Positions 28,936-58,680 of a stretch of 64,000 nucleotides of DNA are shown here, piece by piece; the first letter of the stretch is position 1, and each line of letters starts with the position of its first letter. The stretch spans positions 477,385 through 541,384 of the forward strand of contig NZ_LN831197.1 of assembly GCF_001375535.1 (NCBI RefSeq). The letters are read 5' to 3'. Under the pieces are notes generated by a model. The model searched no databases. It saw only the letters and a list, made by a program, of their open reading frames with translations, and was not told the DNA's origin. The translations under genes and the position numbers were made by a program. This DNA is from Bacillus niameyensis. GTDB taxonomy: Bacteria; Bacillota; Bacilli; Bacillales; Bacillaceae_C.

Positions 28936-30607
28936 TAGATACATCCTCCTTTCTCATAGAGTCAGCAAATTGGATTAATGATGATAAATTTTCCATTTTT
29001 ATTTTCATTTCTCCTTCGGATTTGGATTGATGGAAAATATCATTCAAATATTCCTCCATATTCGTACCGTCAAATCTTGTTAAAATTTCGTCTAATTCTC
29101 CAACTACTCTTTCAAATAAATCAATTTTTTCGTATAGAAGCTTCAAGATATGTTCTTCAATCGTATTTTTTACAGTAAAATTATATATTTTCACATTGTT
29201 CTCTTGTCCAAGTCGATGAATTCTTCCGATTCTTTGTTCCAAGCGCATCGGATTCCAAGGTAGATCAAAATTAATGATATGGGAACAAAATTGGAGGTTT
29301 ATTCCCTCACCACCAGCTTCTGTTGCAATTAAAACTTGAGCGTGATTTTTGAAAAGTTCACGCATCCAGTCTTTTTTACTTCTCTTAAATCCGCCCCTGA
29401 AAGGTACAGAACGAATCCCATTTTGTTGGAGGAACCATTGTAAATACATTTGTGTTGCTCGATATTCGGTAAAGATAATAACCTTATCATTAATAGTTTG
29501 AATTAGCTCTAATGCTTTCTCAGCTTTGGAATTATGGCTAACGGCATCAATCTTAGTTTTAATCCATTGACATTTTTCCATAAAAGCTTTTGTTGGATTT
29601 TCCATTTTACTTAACATATTTTTTAAAGTTAGAAATACGGCTTCTCGGCTACTACAGGCTTCCCTTTTTAAAGTCATTAACGAAAACCCATGAGCAGAAT
29701 ATCCAGAATCCTTCTCCTTTAATACATCAATGGCTTGATATAACTCCTTCTCATCTTCAGAAAAAGAGATATAGACACTTTCAATTTCACGTTCAGGCCA
29801 CTCTACACCTGTATCGTTTCTTCTGTTTCGAATCATCACTTTATTAACTAGCTCTTTTAAAAATGCATCCTCTTTCATTGATGCTTTATTGCTATTTTTA
29901 TATTTGTCCAAAAACCCACTTTCACTGCCTAAATGTCCAGGCTTAAGCAGGGAGACAAGATGGAAAATTTCCTCAATTTTATTTTGGATAGGTGTTGCTG
30001 TTAATAGTAAACAAAATTTCTTTTTGAGCGATTGAACAAATTGATAGTTTTGTGTTTTTGGGTTTTTTAGTTTGTGTGCCTCATCAATAATAATTAGATC
30101 ATAGTCCTGTTCTGCAATAATTTCTTTATGTGGGCTCCGTTTAGCCGTGTCAATTGAAGAAACAACACAAGAATATTGTTCCCAGACATAGCTTTTTCGC
30201 TGGGCTACCGCAGGAATGTGAAATTTTGAGTTTAATTCTTGTACCCATTGTGATACAAGGGATGCGGGCACAAGAATTAGCACTTTATTGACTAGTCCGC
30301 GAATCATATATTCTTTTAATATGAGTCCAGCTTCAATCGTTTTTCCAAGTCCCACTTCGTCAGCTAAAATCGCTTTACCGTTCATATTTTCTACGACTTG
30401 TTGAGCCGTTTCTAGCTGATGCGGCAGAGGAGTTAAATTAGGTAAATATTTTGGGGCAACTAATCCTTCAAATGAAGGAACCGTTAGATGTTTTTCTGAC
30501 TCAAATGCTAATTTAAATAGTTCATAGTTAGCCCACGGACCATCTTTTTCAAGCCGATCCATAAAGTCACTTTTCCATGTTTGGTCGAATTGAATCCTTA
30601 TAGACAT
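28904..30607 (-). CDS. yqhH: SNF2-family helicase YqhH
   Basis: The 567-residue ATPase of the RapA/SNF2 type shows helicase motif I in LADEVGLGKTIEAGLI, motif II in IIDEAHKLKN, motif III in LLTATPIQN, and motifs V-VI in EAGGEGINLQ and EQRIGRIHRLGQ. It should move along duplex DNA or remodel RNA polymerase complexes; substrate unknown. I use ATG 30607 behind TAGGAGGCG. The end overlaps yqhG. In B. subtilis the yqhH-yqhG pair lies divergent from gcvT exactly as here. Confidence 0.9.
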   Translation of the reverse strand: MSIRIQFDQTWKSDFMDRLEKDGPWANYELFKLAFESEKHLTVPSFEGLVAPKYLPNLTPLPHQLETAQQVVENMNGKAILADEVGLGKTIEAGLILKEYMIRGLVNKVLILVPASLVSQWVQELNSKFHIPAVAQRKSYVWEQYSCVVSSIDTAKRSPHKEIIAEQDYDLIIIDEAHKLKNPKTQNYQFVQSLKKKFCLLLTATPIQNKIEEIFHLVSLLKPGHLGSESGFLDKYKNSNKASMKEDAFLKELVNKVMIRNRRNDTGVEWPEREIESVYISFSEDEKELYQAIDVLKEKDSGYSAHGFSLMTLKREACSSREAVFLTLKNMLSKMENPTKAFMEKCQWIKTKIDAVSHNSKAEKALELIQTINDKVIIFTEYRATQMYLQWFLQQNGIRSVPFRGGFKRSKKDWMRELFKNHAQVLIATEAGGEGINLQFCSHIINFDLPWNPMRLEQRIGRIHRLGQENNVKIYNFTVKNTIEEHILKLLYEKIDLFERVVGELDEILTRFDGTNMEEYLNDIFHQSKSEGEMKIKMENLSSLIQFADSMRKEDVSIAANRNTSIS

Positions 30608-30745
30608 AACACGCCTCCTAATAATAAGGAAAAAGATTGATGAAACCATCAATTGATGGTACGATGATGTTGATTTGGAAACCGTAACAATTATTTAAAG
30701 TAATTATAGTATGTCCAAAAAATTTAATAAATATTGGCGAATGAG

Positions 30746-31176
30746 AGCAAGGGGAGAGACCGCAAATCGCGGCGCCGAAGGAGCAAGCAATGAGATTGTG
30801 AATCTCTCAGGCAAAAAGACCCTTGTTTGACGCAACTCTGGAGAGTGTTCTAATTAGAAAAGCGAAAGCGCCCCGTTTAGCGACGTAGAAACTTCCTAGC
30901 TTCTGACGAGATAAAGGAAACACGATAAGTCCGACAGGACGAATCGATGTTGACTTATCGTAGGAAGAAGCGTAGAAGATTCCTAGTCGCTGGGCGCTGG
31001 AGCTAGACAAAGAAAAGCGAAAGCGCCCCGTTTAGCGACGTAGAAGTTTCCTAGTCGCTGGGCACTGTAGCTGGACCTAAACTAATTAAGGACCACCAAA
31101 GGGGTAAGCCGTGAAGGTCAAACTCTCAGGTGAAAGGACAGGGAAATCCGTATGAAGGGATTTTTCTGTCCTTTTT
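30746..31176 (+). promoter_or_regulatory. Tandem glycine riboswitch with terminator
   Basis: Aptamer 1 runs from CAAGGGGAGAG (30748) through GGCGCCGAAGGAGCAA and AATCTCTCAGGC to CCCTTG (30820-30825), which pairs with CAAGGG as P1. Aptamer 2 begins with CTCTGGAGAGTG (30836), continues after an insertion with CCACCAAAGGGG (31093 on), AACTCTCAGGTG and CAGGG. The expression platform is an AGGACAG/CTGTCCT stem ending in T6 at about 31135-31176. Glycine binding should prevent termination and switch on gcvT-gcvPA-gcvPB. The odd feature is about 225 nt of repeat DNA in the P2 loop of aptamer 2. Confidence 0.92.
30857..31081 (+). repeat. Repeat-family insertion inside aptamer 2 of the glycine riboswitch
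   Basis: Two related units lie head to tail. The first (to about 31013) begins AGAAAAGCGAAAGCGCCCC and ends GCTGGAGCTAGACAA, with an inner stem GATAAGTC/GACTTATC. The second (31014-31076) has the same two ends without the middle. Each folds as GCGCCC/GGGCGC plus AGCGAC/GTCGCT. The direct repeat CTAATTA lies on both sides (30850-30856 and 31082-31088). It is the same family as the array at 46-48 kb. Confidence 0.85.
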
Positions 31177-31231
31177 TCGTTCCACGGAATAGTTTTGATT
31201 TAGAATTAATGAGTTGAAAGGAGTGCGCGTG

Positions 31232-32338
31232 ATGACAACTTTAAAAAGAACGCCGTTGGATCCGCTTTATGAAGAGATGGGAGCAAAAACGATTGATTTT
31301 GGGGGGTGGGCGCTTCCCGTCCAATTTTCCAGTATTAAAGACGAACATCATGCGGTTAGAACTAAAGCTGGATTGTTTGATGTATCTCATATGGGAGAAG
31401 TGATTGTCAAGGGCAAAGACAGCTTAAAATTTTTACAAAAGATGCTAACCAATGATCTAGCAAAACTAAAAGCAGGTGAAGTTCTTTATACGGCTATGTG
31501 TTATGACGACGGTGGTACAGTAGATGACCTACTAGTTTATCAATTGGCAGAAATGGAATACTTGTTAGTTGTGAATGCAGCCAATACAGAAAAGGATTTT
31601 GAGTGGCTAACGGAACATATCGAGGGAGAAGTCACGATCGAGAACGTTTCGAATGAATATGCCTTACTAGCCATCCAAGGACCAGCCTCCTGCGATATTC
31701 TTCAAAGTGTTGTAAATGTAGATATGCAAGGGCTTAAATTTTTTAATTTTTGGCAAAATGTACAAATCAATGGTGCGAATACATTGTTATCACGGACAGG
31801 ATATACGGGTGAAGATGGTTTTGAAATTTATTGTAATCCAAAAGACGCTACAATGCTTTGGAAGCTCCTCCTAGAAACTGGCGAAAAGCAAGGTCTTCTT
31901 CCATGTGGTTTAGGTGCAAGAGATACTCTTCGTTTTGAGGCATGTTTACCATTATATGGCCAAGAACTAAGTAAAAATATTACTCCTCTAGAAGCTGGGA
32001 TTGGTTTTGCTGTTAAATTAAATAAAAGCGTCAGTTTTATTGGTCAAAAATCCCTCCAAAAGCAAAAAGAAGATGGGATCTCCCGAAAAAATGTTGGGAT
32101 TGAGATGATTGATCGGGGAATTCCAAGACAAGGATACAAAGTTTACGACGATCATAATGAAATTGGTGAAGTAACGTCTGGAACTCAATCACCAACATTG
32201 AAAAAGAATGTTGGATTAGCATTAATTGATATAGAGCAGTGTGAAATTGGTCGTGAAGTCTTTGTGGATATCCGTGGGAAACGATTGAAAGCGAAAATTA
32301 TATCCAAACCTTTTTATGCAAGACAAAAAAATAAATAG
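31232..32338 (+). CDS. gcvT: Aminomethyltransferase (glycine cleavage T protein)
   Basis: The 368-residue folate enzyme takes the aminomethyl group from H protein and yields methylene-THF and ammonia. Visible family motifs are [20 protein letters not shown], the folate-binding [16 protein letters not shown] and [11 protein letters not shown]. The ATG at 31232 follows AAGGAG. It opens a three-gene operon under the glycine riboswitch. The H protein gene is not in this window, as in B. subtilis. Confidence 0.96.
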
Positions 32339-32350
32339 GGGGCTAAGAGT

Positions 32351-33700
32351 ATGGGAGAACATCGTTATCTGCCGATGACTGAGCAAGATAAAAAAGAAAT
32401 GCTCGAAGCAATTGGTGTCAACACGATTGATGAGCTTTTTTCCGATATACCTGAAAAAGTTAGATTTAAAGGCGAATATAAAATTAAAAAAGCAAAGTCT
32501 GAACCGGAATTGCTCAGAGAATTGACTAGATTAGCAGCCAAAAATGCGGATATGAAACAATATGTATCGTTTTTAGGTGCGGGTGTTTATGACCATTACA
32601 TCCCAACAATTGTTGATCATGTAATTTCGAGGTCAGAATTTTATACAGCGTATACACCTTATCAACCAGAAATTTCCCAAGGAGAGCTTCAGGCAATCTT
32701 TCAATTTCAAACAATGATTTGTGAGCTTACGGGTATGGCTGTGGCAAATTCATCGATGTATGACGGAGGCACAGCGCTTGCAGAAGCAGCTATGCTAAGC
32801 GCTGCTCAAACTAGACGGAAAAAAATCTTAGTTTCTAAAACAGTCCATCCCGAATCCAGAGAAGTGTTAAAAACATATGCAATGGGCCAAAATATTGAAA
32901 TTGTAGAAATTCCTTATAAAAATGGTGTAACGGATGTAGATTCACTTGTAGATGAACTTAGTCAGGATGTAGCTGGATTAATTGTTCAATATCCGAATTT
33001 TTTTGGTCAAATTGAGCCATTAAAGGAAATAGAACGATTAATCCATGAACAAAAAGGATTGATGATCGTTTCTAGTAATCCGCTTTCATTAGGGATTTTA
33101 ACTCCTCCTGGGGACTTAGGGGCTGATATAGTTGTCGGTGATGCACAAGTATTTGGCATTCCTGCTTCTTTTGGAGGACCACATTGCGGTTATTTTGCTG
33201 TTACAGAAAAATTAATGAGAAAGGTTCCTGGGCGCCTTGTCGGTCAAACCGTTGATGAGAATGGAAAAAGAGGGTTTGTTTTAACTTTACAAGCACGTGA
33301 ACAGCATATCCGTCGCGATAAAGCAACATCTAACATTTGCTCCAATCAGGCACTAAATGCTCTGGCTGCTTCAGTAGCAATGACAGCTCTTGGAAAAAAA
33401 GGGGTTCGTCAAATGGCTATTCAAAATATGCAGAAGACTCATTATGCAATGAAACTTTTTAAAGAAAAAGGCTTTGACATCCCGTTTACTGGGCACCATT
33501 TTAATGAATTTGTTATACGATTAAATACATCAATACAGGGTTTAAATAAAAAACTTTTAAATAAGGGAATTATTGGTGGTTACGATCTTGGGCGTGATTA
33601 CCCTGAACTTGAAGGGCACATACTTATTTGTGTTACTGAATTAAGAACGAAAGACGAAATAAATGCATTAGTGCAGGAAATGGGGGAAAACGATGAGTAA
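32351..33700 (+). CDS. gcvPA: Glycine dehydrogenase, subunit 1
   Basis: The 449-residue alpha subunit of the split P protein decarboxylates glycine together with subunit 2. Characteristic stretches are [42 protein letters not shown] and [12 protein letters not shown]. It binds no PLP lysine itself; that residue is in subunit 2. Start ATG lies behind AGGGGGC. It follows gcvT by 12 bp and overlaps gcvPB by 8 bp. Confidence 0.96.
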
Positions 33701-35150
33701 CTTAAAGCTTATTTTTGAACTATCTAAGCCGGGACGAATTGGATATAGTTTACCTGAACTGGATGTTCCAGAAACTGATTTAAGTGAGTGTATACCTGAA
33801 GAATACATTCGAAAAGAAGAACCAGATCTTCCAGAAGTATCTGAACTAGACATAATGCGTCATTTTACCGAACTATCTACCCATAACCATGGTGTAGATT
33901 CAGGTTTTTATCCACTTGGATCTTGTACGATGAAATATAATCCAAAGATCAACGAACAAGTGGCTCGATTCCCGGGCTTTGCTCATATTCACCCTTATCA
34001 ACCAGAATCCTCTGTACAAGGTGCACTTGAATTAATGTATGATCTTCAAGAACATTTGAAAGAGATAACGGGTATGGATGAAGTTACCCTACAACCAGCA
34101 GCGGGAGCCCATGGTGAATGGGCCGGATTGATGCTAATTCGAGCATATCATGAGGCAAATGGGGACACAGCAAGGACAAAGGTAATTATTCCCGATTCTG
34201 CCCATGGTACGAACCCAGCTTCTGCTTCTGTTGCTGGGTTTGAAACAGTCACAGTTAAATCAGGCCCAGATGGACTTGTCGATATTGAGCATTTGAAGGA
34301 AATCGTTGGTCCCGATACAGCAGCCCTTATGTTAACAAACCCTAATACCCTTGGCTTATTTGAAGAGGGAATTTTGGAATTGGCTGAGATTGTCCATGGG
34401 GTTGGTGGAAAGCTTTATTATGATGGGGCGAATCTAAATGCCGTTATGTCCAAGGCGCGTCCTGGTGATATGGGATTTGACGTCGTCCACTTAAATCTTC
34501 ATAAAACGTTCACTGGTCCACATGGTGGTGGCGGACCTGGATCGGGACCAGTCGGGGTAAAAGCAGATTTAGTTCCATTTTTACCGAAACCCGTGATCAC
34601 GAAGAATGGTGACAACTATCTGATCGATTATGACCGTCCACAAGCTATCGGTCGCGTGAAACCATTTTACGGAAACTTTGGCATTAATGTGAGGGCCTAC
34701 ACGTATATTCGCTCAATGGGCCCAGATGGTTTGAAGGCTGTAACTGAATATGCTGTGTTAAATGCCAATTATATGATGAGAAGGCTTGCTCCATATTTCG
34801 ATCTTCCCTATGATCGCCACTGTAAACATGAATTTGTTTTGAGCGGCAAGCGACAAAAGACACTAGGTGTCCGTACTTTAGACATTGCAAAGCGACTATT
34901 AGATTTTGGCTTTCATCCACCGACTGTTTATTTTCCACTCATTGTTGAAGAGTGTATGATGTTAGAACCGACTGAAACAGAGTCGAAAGAAACGCTGGAT
35001 GCCTTTATCGACACGATGATTCAAATTGCGCAAGAAGTAGAGGAGAACCCAGAGATTGTTCAAGAAGCCCCACATACTACGCTTGTAAAACGTTTGGATG
35101 AAACATTGGCTGCTCGAAAACCAATATTGCGTTATCAGGAAGCAGATTAA
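33693..35150 (+). CDS. gcvPB: Glycine dehydrogenase, subunit 2
   Basis: The 485-residue beta subunit of the split P protein carries the PLP lysine in [18 protein letters not shown]. Other motifs are [11 protein letters not shown] and [11 protein letters not shown]. It completes the glycine cleavage P protein. It overlaps gcvPA by 8 bp, a sign of coupled translation of the two subunits. A strong terminator follows. Confidence 0.96.
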
Positions 35151-45801: not shown

Positions 45802-46191
45802 ATTGTTATTTTACAAATTGCAGGGATTGCCCTAATAACAACTTTTTTAGCTGTAGTGATTAAAGAGCAGAAACCTGGATTTGCATTCTTATTGATTTTA
45901 TTTACTGGGACAGGCATTTTTCTTTTTCTAGTTGATCAAATTCAAAAAATAATTCAGATGATAGAAAACCTTGCAGCAAGCGCAAATGTAAATTCTCTCT
46001 ATGTCAGAACGATCTTGAAGATCATTGGAATTGCATATATCGCAGAATTTACTTCACATATTAGCAAGGATGCGGGACAGAGTTCGCTTGCAGCAAAAGT
46101 AGAACTAGCCGGCAAAATATTAATACTGGCAATGGCTGTCCCAATTTTAACCGTATTAATTGAAACAATTCTAGCAATGATGCCTGTGTAG
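45802..46191 (+). CDS. spoIIIAD: Stage III sporulation protein AD with probable ATT start
   Basis: The 129-residue membrane protein has VILQIAGIALITTFLAVV, IKEQKPGFAF, then SLYVRTILKIIGIAYIAEFT and LAGKILILAMAVPILTVLIE, all strongly like SpoIIIAD. The first canonical start (GTG 45856) would remove the first membrane span and the residues before IKEQKP. Upstream in frame are TAG (45787-45789), GGG GAA TCC ATC ATT. The ATT at 45802 is 8 nt after GGGGG and yields the family N-terminus. I infer AUU initiation. It is followed directly by the repeat array. Confidence 0.85.
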   Translation: MVILQIAGIALITTFLAVVIKEQKPGFAFLLILFTGTGIFLFLVDQIQKIIQMIENLAASANVNSLYVRTILKIIGIAYIAEFTSHISKDAGQSSLAAKVELAGKILILAMAVPILTVLIETILAMMPV

Positions 46192-46194
46192 AAA

Positions 46195-46340
46195 GAAAAG
46201 CGTAAACGCCCGTTTAGCGACGTACAAACTTTTTAAGCTTCTGACGAGATAAAGGAAACACAGCGAGGGACGAGCTGATGTTGACTTATCGTAGGAAGAA
46301 GCTGAAAGTTTGCTAGTCGCTGGGCGTTGAAGCTGGACAA
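46195..46340 (+). repeat. First, shorter repeat unit before the tandem array
   Basis: About 146 bp beginning AGAAAAGCGTAAACGCCCG just after the spoIIIAD stop and ending GTTGAAGCTGGACAA. It equals an array unit without the 60-70-bp inner module; in its place stands TTAAGCTTCTGA, as in the riboswitch copy. It is therefore the probable parental form. Confidence 0.85.
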
Positions 46341-48417
46341 AGAAAAGCGTAAACGCCCGTTTAGCGACGTACAAACTTTAATAATAAGGATGAACGGCTA
46401 AAGTCGCGCCGTCCTGGCGCAACGCCGTTCTGACCAACGTCGTGTTGGCCCGAGATAAAGGAAACACAGCGAGGGACGAGCTGATGTTGACTTATCGTAG
46501 GAAGAAGCTGAAAGTTTGCTAGTCGTTGGGCGTTGAAGCTGGACAAAGAAAAGCGTAAACGCCCGTTTAGCGACGTACAAACTTTAATAATAAGGATGAA
46601 CGGCTAAAGTCGCGCCGTCCTGGCGCAACGCCGTTCTGACCAACGTCGTGTTGGCCCGAGATAAAGGAAACACAGCGAGGGACGAGCTGATGTTGACTTA
46701 TCGTAGGAAGAAGCTGAAAGTTTGCTAGTCGTTGGGCGTTGAAGCTGGACAAAGAAAAGCGTAAACGCCCGTTTAGCGACGTACAAACTTTAATAATAAG
46801 GATGAACGGCTAAAGTCGCGCCGTCCTGGCGCAACGCCGTTCTGACCAACGTCGTGTTGGCCCGAGATAAAGGAAACACAGCGAGGGACGAGCTGATGTT
46901 GACTTATCGTAGGAAGAAGCTGAAAGTTTGCTAGTCGTTGGGCGTTGAAGCTGGACAAAGAAAAGCGTAAACGCCCGTTTAGCGACGTACAAACTTTAAT
47001 AATAAGGATGAACGGCTAAAGTCGCGCCGTCCTGGCGCAACGCCGTTCTGACCAACGTCGTGTTGGCCCGAGATAAAGGAAACACAGCGAGGGACGAGCT
47101 GATGTTGACTTATCGTAGGAAGAAGCTGAAAGTTTGCTAGTCGTTGGGCGTTGAAGCTGGACAAAGAAAAGCGTAAACGCCCGTTTAGCGACGTACAAAC
47201 TTTAATAATAAGGATGAACGGCTAAAGTCGCGCCGTCCTGGCGCAACGCCGTTCTGACCAACGTCGTGTTGGCCCGAGATAAAGGAAACACAGCGAGGGA
47301 CGAGCTGATGTTGACTTATCGTAGGAAGAAGCTGAAAGTTTGCTAGTCGTTGGGCGTTGAAGCTGGACAAAGAAAAGCGTAAACGCCCGTTTAGCGACGT
47401 ACAAACTTTAATAATAAGGATGAACGGCTAAAGTCGCGCCGTCCTGGCGCAACGCCGTTCTGACCAACGTCGTGTTGGCCCGAGATAAAGGAAACACAGC
47501 GAGGGACGAGCTGATGTTGACTTATCGTAGGAAGAAGCTGAAAGTTTGCTAGTCGTTGGGCGTTGAAGCTGGACAAAGAAAAGCGTAAACGCCCGTTTAG
47601 CGACGTACAAACTTTAATAATAAGGATGAACGGCTAAAGTCGCGCCGTCCTGGCGCAACGCCGTTCTGACCAACGTCGTGTTGGCCCGAGATAAAGGAAA
47701 CACAGCGAGGGACGAGCTGATGTTGACTTATCGTAGGAAGAAGCTGAAAGTTTGCTAGTCGTTGGGCGTTGAAGCTGGACAAAGAAAAGCGTAAACGCCC
47801 GTTTAGCGACGTACAAACTTTAATAATAAGGATGAACGGCTAAAGTCGCGCCGTCCTGGCGCAACGCCGTTCTGACCAACGTCGTGTTGGCCCGAGATAA
47901 AGGAAACACAGCGAGGGACGAGCTGATGTTGACTTATCGTAGGAAGAAGCTGAAAGTTTGCTAGTCGTTGGGCGTTGAAGCTGGACAAAGAAAAGCGTAA
48001 ACGCCCGTTTAGCGACGTACAAACTTTAATAATAAGGATGAACGGCTAAAGTCGCGCCGTCCTGGCGCAACGCCGTTCTGACCAACGTCGTGTTGGCCCG
48101 AGATAAAGGAAACACAGCGAGGGACGAGCTGATGTTGACTTATCGTAGGAAGAAGCTGAAAGTTTGCTAGTCGTTGGGCGTTGAAGCTGGACAAAGAAAA
48201 GCGTAAACGCCCGTTTAGCGACGTACAAACTTTAATAATAAGGATGAACGGCTAAAGTCGCGCCGTCCTGGCGCAACGCCGTTCTGACCAACGTCGTGTT
48301 GGCCCGAGATAAAGGAAACACAGCGAGGGACGAGCTGATGTTGACTTATCGTAGGAAGAAGCTGAAAGTTTGCTAGTCGTTGGGCGTTGAAACTGGACAA
48401 AGAAAAGCGTAAACGCC
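46341..48417 (+). repeat. Tandem array of ten 206-bp units in the spoIIIA operon
   Basis: Units start at 46341, 46547, 46753, 46959, 47165, 47371, 47577, 47783, 47989 and 48195; an eleventh breaks off after 17 bp (48401-48417). The units look identical by eye; the last has AACTGGAC for AGCTGGAC. Each folds by pairing AACGCCC/GGGCGTT, AGCGAC/GTCGTT and CAAACTTT/AAAGTTTG. The inner module has two hairpins, GCGCC/GGCGC and CCAAC/GTTGG. No spacers exist, so this is not CRISPR. It lengthens the spoIIIAD-spoIIIAE gap to nearly 2.3 kb. Confidence 0.95.
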
Positions 48418-48484
48418 ATACAGGCTGGAATCGCGAAGTCTGTACGTCGAAATTAGATCAATAAAAGGAAACGGAGTGGCGTAC

Positions 48485-58044: not shown

Positions 58045-58055
58045 TTTATCCATAT

Positions 58056-58650
58056 TGTTGGATGGTGCAGTATTCTAGTCAATCTACCGGTTCTGAAGGT
58101 GGGCCTAAAAATTCACTAAAGGGCATATCGATGAAGTTCCTTGTTCCGGCTTGAGGAGCCCAGCCTTGGGTCGGAGCTGGGAGTAAAGGTGTAAGGGCGA
58201 TCCACAATGGCATGTGGGCGTAGACCCTTTACCGCGGAGGCTTCGTTCATTCAGCTAGGCAAGTGCTAGTTGAGTTGCGGAGTATAGACCTGCAATGTGA
58301 TAAGGGTATCACTAGCAGCGTAGCCTGCCTTGAGTGAAGTTCGAGGGGATTATGGTTATAAGATACAAGAACGGTTGGCCATCGTCTTGTTTTCTTCAGC
58401 CCATATGAAATCGGCTTTGCAAAAGAGGCTAGGAACATGGTTAAAGATTGTTGAGGAAATCTCCTAGACTGTTCTCATGACATAAAAAGAGGATTATAGT
58501 GCGGACTAAGTGGTAATCCAGTCCGGCAGATGGTGACACTGTCGAGGTAGATTTAAAGGGAAACCGCCGGTATGGCGACATCTGGTATTTACTTGGGAAA
58601 ACCTACTGGACCTAAGCCGTAATTTTTACTCTTTTTATGACCATCCAACA
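58056..58650 (+). ncRNA. ole: OLE RNA (ornate, large, extremophilic)
   Basis: A 595-nt G-rich noncoding region is closed by a perfect 11-bp stem: TGTTGGATGGT (58056-58066) with ACCATCCAACA (58640-58650). The start (CAATCTACCGGTTCTGAAGG), middle (GCGATCCACAATGGCATGTG) and end (CCTACTGGACCTAAGCCGTA) look like OLE as I remember it, and the gene order ispA-OLE-oapA-dxs is the classic one. OLE RNA binds OapA at the membrane and, in Bacillus halodurans, aids survival under cold, ethanol and magnesium stress. No reading frame here has a ribosome binding site. The call rests on context and recalled motifs. Confidence 0.93.
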
Positions 58651-58680
58651 CTTCCAAACGAAAGATGGAATAATGAAATT

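Follow-up and report, generated by a model that had tools for sequence, protein, structure and literature searches.

A dispersed hairpin-forming repeat in the P2 loop of the second aptamer of a probably still responsive glycine riboswitch

We analyzed a 64,000-nt stretch of the Bacillus niameyensis genome (contig NZ_LN831197.1, positions 477,385–541,384; hereafter the window), in which a tandem glycine riboswitch leader (30737–31176) lies on the plus strand 5′ of an intact gcvT-gcvPA-gcvPB operon. The three glycine metabolism genes, gcvT (open reading frame 31214–32338, start codon provisional), gcvPA (32351–33700), and gcvPB (33693–35150), are on the same strand, and their products match TIGR00528 (NCBIfam), NF001696, and NF003346 with 467.9, 687.1, and 805.2 bits, respectively, each above the curated cut-off. 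Aptamer 1 (30741–30832, plus strand) matches the RF00504 model with 73.5 bits, and both its P1 and its P0 (GCG at 30737–30739 with CGC at 30831–30833) are present in the predicted fold. At aptamer 2, the match to the same model is restricted to 31061–31151 (30.1 bits, below the cut-off of 32; E 7e-4) and takes letters of a repeat as a stand-in for the true 5′ strand, presumably because of the insert that this aptamer carries. Its 5′ part, CTCTGGAGAG, was recognized by its letters 5′ of the insert.

The elements of aptamer 2 follow one another on the plus strand, interrupted by the insert. The 5′ strand of P1 (CUCUG, 30836–30840) would pair with CAGGG at 31139–31143. P2 sets GTTCTAATTAG (30847–30857) against CTAATTAAGGAC (31082–31093), with strands that appear as GUUCUAAUUAG and CUAAUUAAGGAC in the predicted folds, and the P3 region (CACCAAAGGGG…AGGUG, 31094–31132) was placed by the minimum-energy fold and the RF00504 match. 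P1 overlaps an intrinsic terminator (31133–31174), an inverted repeat with arms at 31133–31149 and 31158–31174, a following U run, and a mean pair probability of 0.999; the 3′ strand of P1 lies inside, and is common to, the terminator arm. A consensus scan of 30600–31260 omitted this terminator from its list and returned no promoter-like site on the plus strand. Two aptamers, P0, the overlap of P1 with the terminator, and a glycine cleavage operon are likewise found in RF00504 gcvT leaders of the B. subtilis type; the difference here is that the P2 strands of aptamer 2 stand 224 nt apart.

The material between these strands is a dispersed repeat (30857–31081, plus strand), as an initial annotation of the region had proposed, with coordinates that hold. 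Counting itself, the insert has 107 blast matches in its own 4.68-Mb genome, and the repeat family is matched in all 16 genomes of its Lederbergia-type genus, at 13–123 matches per genome. The insert is a composite of a long unit, A (30857–31008, about 152 nt), with an outer stem and a conserved apical domain, and a short unit, B, plus the end of the repeat (31012–31081), which lacks the apical domain; unit A is supported by alignment with 29 other units, a covarying stem, and the profile of conservation along its length, and unit B by direct repeats and by alignment with locus L035. This order of long and short units recurs in L027 and L035, and the L035 alignment extends to the end of the insert, CCTAAA. 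In the alignment of the insert to L027, the nearest of the copies we fetched, 185 positions are identical and 12 mismatched, with 24 gap columns. Searching the insert against plasmids gave zero matches, and a search of paper texts for the end of the repeat, as letters, found no occurrence. Two candidate identities were set aside: up to E 1 the insert yielded glycine-clan matches alone in Rfam, and for a hammerhead-like ribozyme, considered by eye, the letters of the would-be core stem covary.

The same site is short in relatives. RF00504 riboswitches occur in 10 of the 16 genus genomes, namely this one and nine congeners, and matches are absent from the remaining six (G004, G005, G006, G008, G009, and G010). 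In every one of the nine riboswitch-bearing congeners, P2 is short and closed by GTTC against GAAC. The comparison with relatives proposed in the initial annotation thus gives, at the level of the genus, a filled form here and a short form in nine of nine. Removal of the insert together with one CTAATTA leaves a normal P2, GUUC-UAAUUAA-GGAC, with a 7-nt loop in this flank-joined version; the Lederbergia citri site (L066, a contig of G002) reads GTTCTAATTATTGAGAACC and has GTTCTAATTA in common with this leader.

The two ends of the repeat abut two direct copies of CTAATTA (30850–30856 and 31082–31088, plus strand). These had been described as either a target duplication or part of the stem. The letters are compatible with both, and it is the "either/or" that falls, since CTAATTAG is its own reverse complement, so that a duplication at this target also adds stem. 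CTAATTA may therefore be a target duplication and an extended stem at once, and on these letters a duplication at this site is probable. Across the repeat family, 36 copies were inspected and 22 had readable ends. In these 22, the longest shared flank averaged 4.05 nt, against 3.81 nt for mismatched flanks. Shared flanks of at least 6 nt occurred in 4 of the 22, against 3.0% of mismatched pairs, but in three cases the shared letters extend into a trailing repeat unit; the 7-nt flank in the window is matched by 1.3% of mismatched pairs. A general duplication signature gave no clear signal in the 22 readable copies.

We consider it probable that the repeat is a tolerated insertion in the P2 loop of aptamer 2 and that the leader still responds to glycine. 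A two-unit copy of the hairpin-forming repeat would have entered a loop that measures 7 nt when joined, probably duplicating CTAATTA, and the duplication would have lengthened the P2 stem because the target is nearly palindromic. Self-folding of the repeat could keep its ends close together, and because P2 is peripheral, the sequences of the glycine-sensing core, of the switch between P1 and the terminator, and of the contacts between the aptamers are untouched. In the Vibrio cholerae switch, as described in a cryo-EM preprint (PMC12060979), P1 and P3 make the inter-aptamer contacts and P2 is variable. We infer an insertion with duplication and a retained glycine response, in which glycine would most likely still activate gcvT through the leader, in the manner described for B. 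subtilis.

The letters of the leader bear on whether aptamer 2 has been left to degenerate. The leader departs from the nine congeners at 4 of the 151 columns that are invariant among them, which lies within the range obtained when each congener is compared with the other eight (0–15 departures at 151–166 invariant columns, 7 of the 15 being gaps). By this measure the core, P1 strands, and terminator show no sign of decay, and the earlier statement that these parts are kept stands. The core letters of aptamer 2, GGAGAG, CCACCAAAGGGG, and CUCUCAGGUG, are the same as in most congeners, and one position in the P1/terminator arm is G here and A in all nine, giving a G-U pair.

Predicted pairing of P2 and P3 comes out clearly weaker when the insert is present. 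The P2 region folded by itself (30842–31095) has an energy of −95.6 kcal/mol, shuffles averaging −65.0 (z −7.0), and an 11-bp P2 interrupted by one bulged A appears in its minimum-energy structure. For the leader as a whole, the minimum-energy structure includes P2, P3, and the terminator and lacks P1 of aptamer 2, as expected once the terminator has formed. Before the terminator is complete, predicted pairing is 0.59 for P2 and 0.68 for outer P3 with the insert, whereas the joined empty site gives 0.84 and 0.87. The full leader shows 0.33 and 0.27 with the insert, versus 0.67 and 0.56 without it. P1 of aptamer 2 is predicted to pair little in either version (0.11 and 0.14) because the folding models ignore glycine. 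Shuffled inserts, evaluated before the terminator, averaged 0.28 for P2 and 0.60 for outer P3, and the native values were reached by 24 of 100 shuffles for P2 and by 53 of 100 for outer P3. A clear advantage of this insert over random ones in preserving the aptamer is thus unsupported.

The lowered pairing of P2 and P3, most pronounced in the full leader, counts against a working switch, whereas core conservation and the intact operon count for one. A less likely alternative is that the insertion crippled aptamer 2, with gcvT now constitutively low or governed by aptamer 1 alone and decay of the core still to come. Loss of this aptamer could go unnoticed: reporter assays in B. subtilis (PMC5666159) are described as showing intact regulation after mutation of the glycine pocket of the second aptamer. 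As reported there, regulation also persisted with a control mutation in a variable part of the second aptamer, at a somewhat raised basal level of expression, a second-aptamer dimerization mutation lowered maximal expression to about one-third, and in vitro work on the V. cholerae switch had found second-aptamer mutations more harmful. Against a crippled aptamer stand the core without decay and a P2 stem that is retained or extended. The 12 mismatches and the gaps that separate the insert from L027 further suggest that the insertion may not be very young, an argument weakened by the fact that the real source copy may be another one.

Long P2 helices also occur outside this genome. From named genomes we fetched 80 gcvT loci, of which 75 fitted a P2 pattern and 5 were judged by eye. 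P2 measured 10–28 nt in 74 of the 75, the exception being Bacillus timonensis (L117); among the other five, four had a P2 no longer than about 35 nt and one showed no riboswitch, so that P2 is about 35 nt or less in 78 of the 79 fetched loci with a visible riboswitch. RF00504 exceeds its cut-off in at least 274 of 299 genomes of the order to which the window belongs. A scan of the 299 with exact anchors returned 2, 6, and 2 genomes for gaps of 225–285, 45–105, and 105–165 nt, with gaps of 165–225 nt and above 285 nt outside its range. The long P2s that we list, 49–247 nt as the gap between anchors with stem and loop combined, occur in at least 9 of the 299 genomes, a lower bound given the exact anchors and the gap ranges scanned, and are spread over five families by database labels. 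The gaps are 247 nt in this genome (G000), 75 in G103, 63 in G297, 49 in G052, 100 in G095, 66 in G041, 61 in G086, 145 in G071, and 138 in G317. The last is the B. timonensis locus, with identical letters and agreeing contig positions. Folded alone from strand to strand, all nine close with a P2 stem (z −1.6 to −6.0). A further candidate, G272, was rejected, as aptamer 1 is absent from the 110 nt upstream. Separately, the second glycine aptamer in G018 (C1:1908462–1908591) measures 130 nt, exceeding the others listed in its family.

The origins of these long P2s appear to differ. We checked for repeats in this genome, L117/G317, G095, and G071, leaving out G103, G297, G052, G041, and G086. 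The B. timonensis insert (P2 137 nt, L117:1176–1330) has eight matches in its genome including itself, the others 75%–81% identical, and scores no higher than shuffles against the window repeat on either strand, which marks it as unrelated. The G071 insert (145 nt) has zero other matches in its own genome. Read in antisense, the G095 insert shows similarity to the window repeat, scoring 32 where none of 500 single-base shuffles exceeded 25 (12 on the sense strand), and it has one other match in its own genome, of 23 nt. On this comparison, P2 has been expanded repeatedly, with dispersed repeats as one source among others. The expectation in the initial annotation that P2 is short is thus correct for all nine riboswitch-bearing congeners and not universal in the order; long P2s without this repeat, which it had held to weigh against its reading, do exist in other families and in no congener.

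These long P2s, together with the single-copy insert of G071, would also fit an account in which the loop here was expanded long ago, as elsewhere in the order, and acquired repeat sequence later. We give this account very little weight, since the site is short in all nine congeners and the repeat ends abut both copies of CTAATTA. The tolerated insertion that we favor is better described as one instance of a broader tolerance: given that some other genomes of the order have longer loops in this position, the P2 loop looks like a tolerated landing site for the repeat rather than the mark of a new kind of switch.

The repeat itself appears to be structured. We read 40 units from 37 fetched loci and the window and aligned 30 of them (L046 being re-admitted by hand after a mistaken Bacillaceae-1 flag), all chosen with patterns in the apical domain, which biases the set toward conservation there. 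Over 41 consensus pairs, 1178 of 1217 cells are paired and two-sided changes occur at 20 pairs, whereas 500 shuffles of the 3′ letters averaged 10 such pairs and never exceeded 14; the consensus structure was derived from the same alignment, which favors pairing. A pattern-free alignment of the long unit (35 loci, 30 distinct), with copies all from this genome and picked by similarity to the insert, gave 99.1% identity in the apical strands, 85.4% in the outer part, and 73.6% in the stretch between the apical strands. In L027–L061 the apical strands of the long unit are GACGAGATAAAGGAAACACG and CGATGTTGACTTATCGTAGG, which match none of the Rfam families, and the outer stems vary and covary. 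With covarying pairs and conserved apical strands, the letters indicate an element that folds, either as RNA or as single-stranded DNA, and whose apical domain is conserved.

Such conservation could be taken to mean that the apical domain binds a cellular factor, adding a second input to glycine, and that the P2 loop is a recurrent docking site for modules derived from mobile repeats, a conjecture to which we lend very little credence. Least credible of all is that the insert adds a function, with factor binding by the apical domain turning this leader into a composite switch, for although the apical strands far exceed the outer part in identity among 30 distinct copies chosen by similarity, the same element sits at about 100 other sites, the arrangement is seen in no congener, and the repeat's own propagation could account for the conservation.

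A tolerated insertion has precedents. According to Barrick and Breaker (2007, PMC2258182), many riboswitches accommodate long insertions folded into stable stem-loops. The "variable insertions" treated there likewise are long, nonconserved stem-loops that spare the core; here, by contrast with that description, the inserted sequence can be recognized as a dispersed repeat of the genome and the short form is present in congeners. In the pneumococcal trp leader, a BOX element between two T boxes is apparently compatible with regulation (PMC3049150), likewise a dispersed repeat within a compound RNA leader, placed between two elements where ours lies inside a helix loop of an aptamer. By their description, bcr1–bcr18 of the B. 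cereus group are comparable as intergenic repeats often found in UTRs, of which bcr1–3 are called MITE-like (PMC3446304); repeat families are treated further in PMC2864571, PMC2267715, and PMC3733652. A literature search with little coverage of subscription journals found no repeat or transposable element inside a glycine riboswitch or any other riboswitch. Variable insertions in riboswitches are already known in general.

The locus offers a natural experiment on the origin of variable insertions in riboswitches, having filled and short forms and an identified, structured repeat, and the leader is an ON switch with an output that is easy to measure. From our survey, expansion of the same P2 seems to have taken place in five families of the order, through dispersed repeats in two genomes and perhaps in a third through sequence similar to the repeat described here. 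A glycine response of the leader would make mobile repeats a source of riboswitch expansion.

Several observations concern the wider repeat family. The RF01690 motif (Bacillaceae-1 RNA) is a module nested inside longer units of this family, which raises the possibility that the Bacillaceae-1 "sRNA" belongs to a mobile repeat. The riboswitch insert is without the module: the RF01690 covariance model gave no match up to E 1 on 30500–31400. Elsewhere in the window, an array at about 46190–48430 contains ten RF01690 matches (46382–48302) of 71.9 bits apiece at a 206-nt period, and a second tandem array of the repeat lies at C6:2805082–2813045 of the same genome (G000), with a period of 363 nt from start spacing. 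At L050, L058, and L059, repeat copies stand right behind what we take, from recognized letters, to be the 3′ end of 16S rRNA; L053 and L054 contain the same repeat unit as L050. Apart from the repeat family, the window holds an OLE RNA at 58046–58660, matched over its full length with 505.5 bits.
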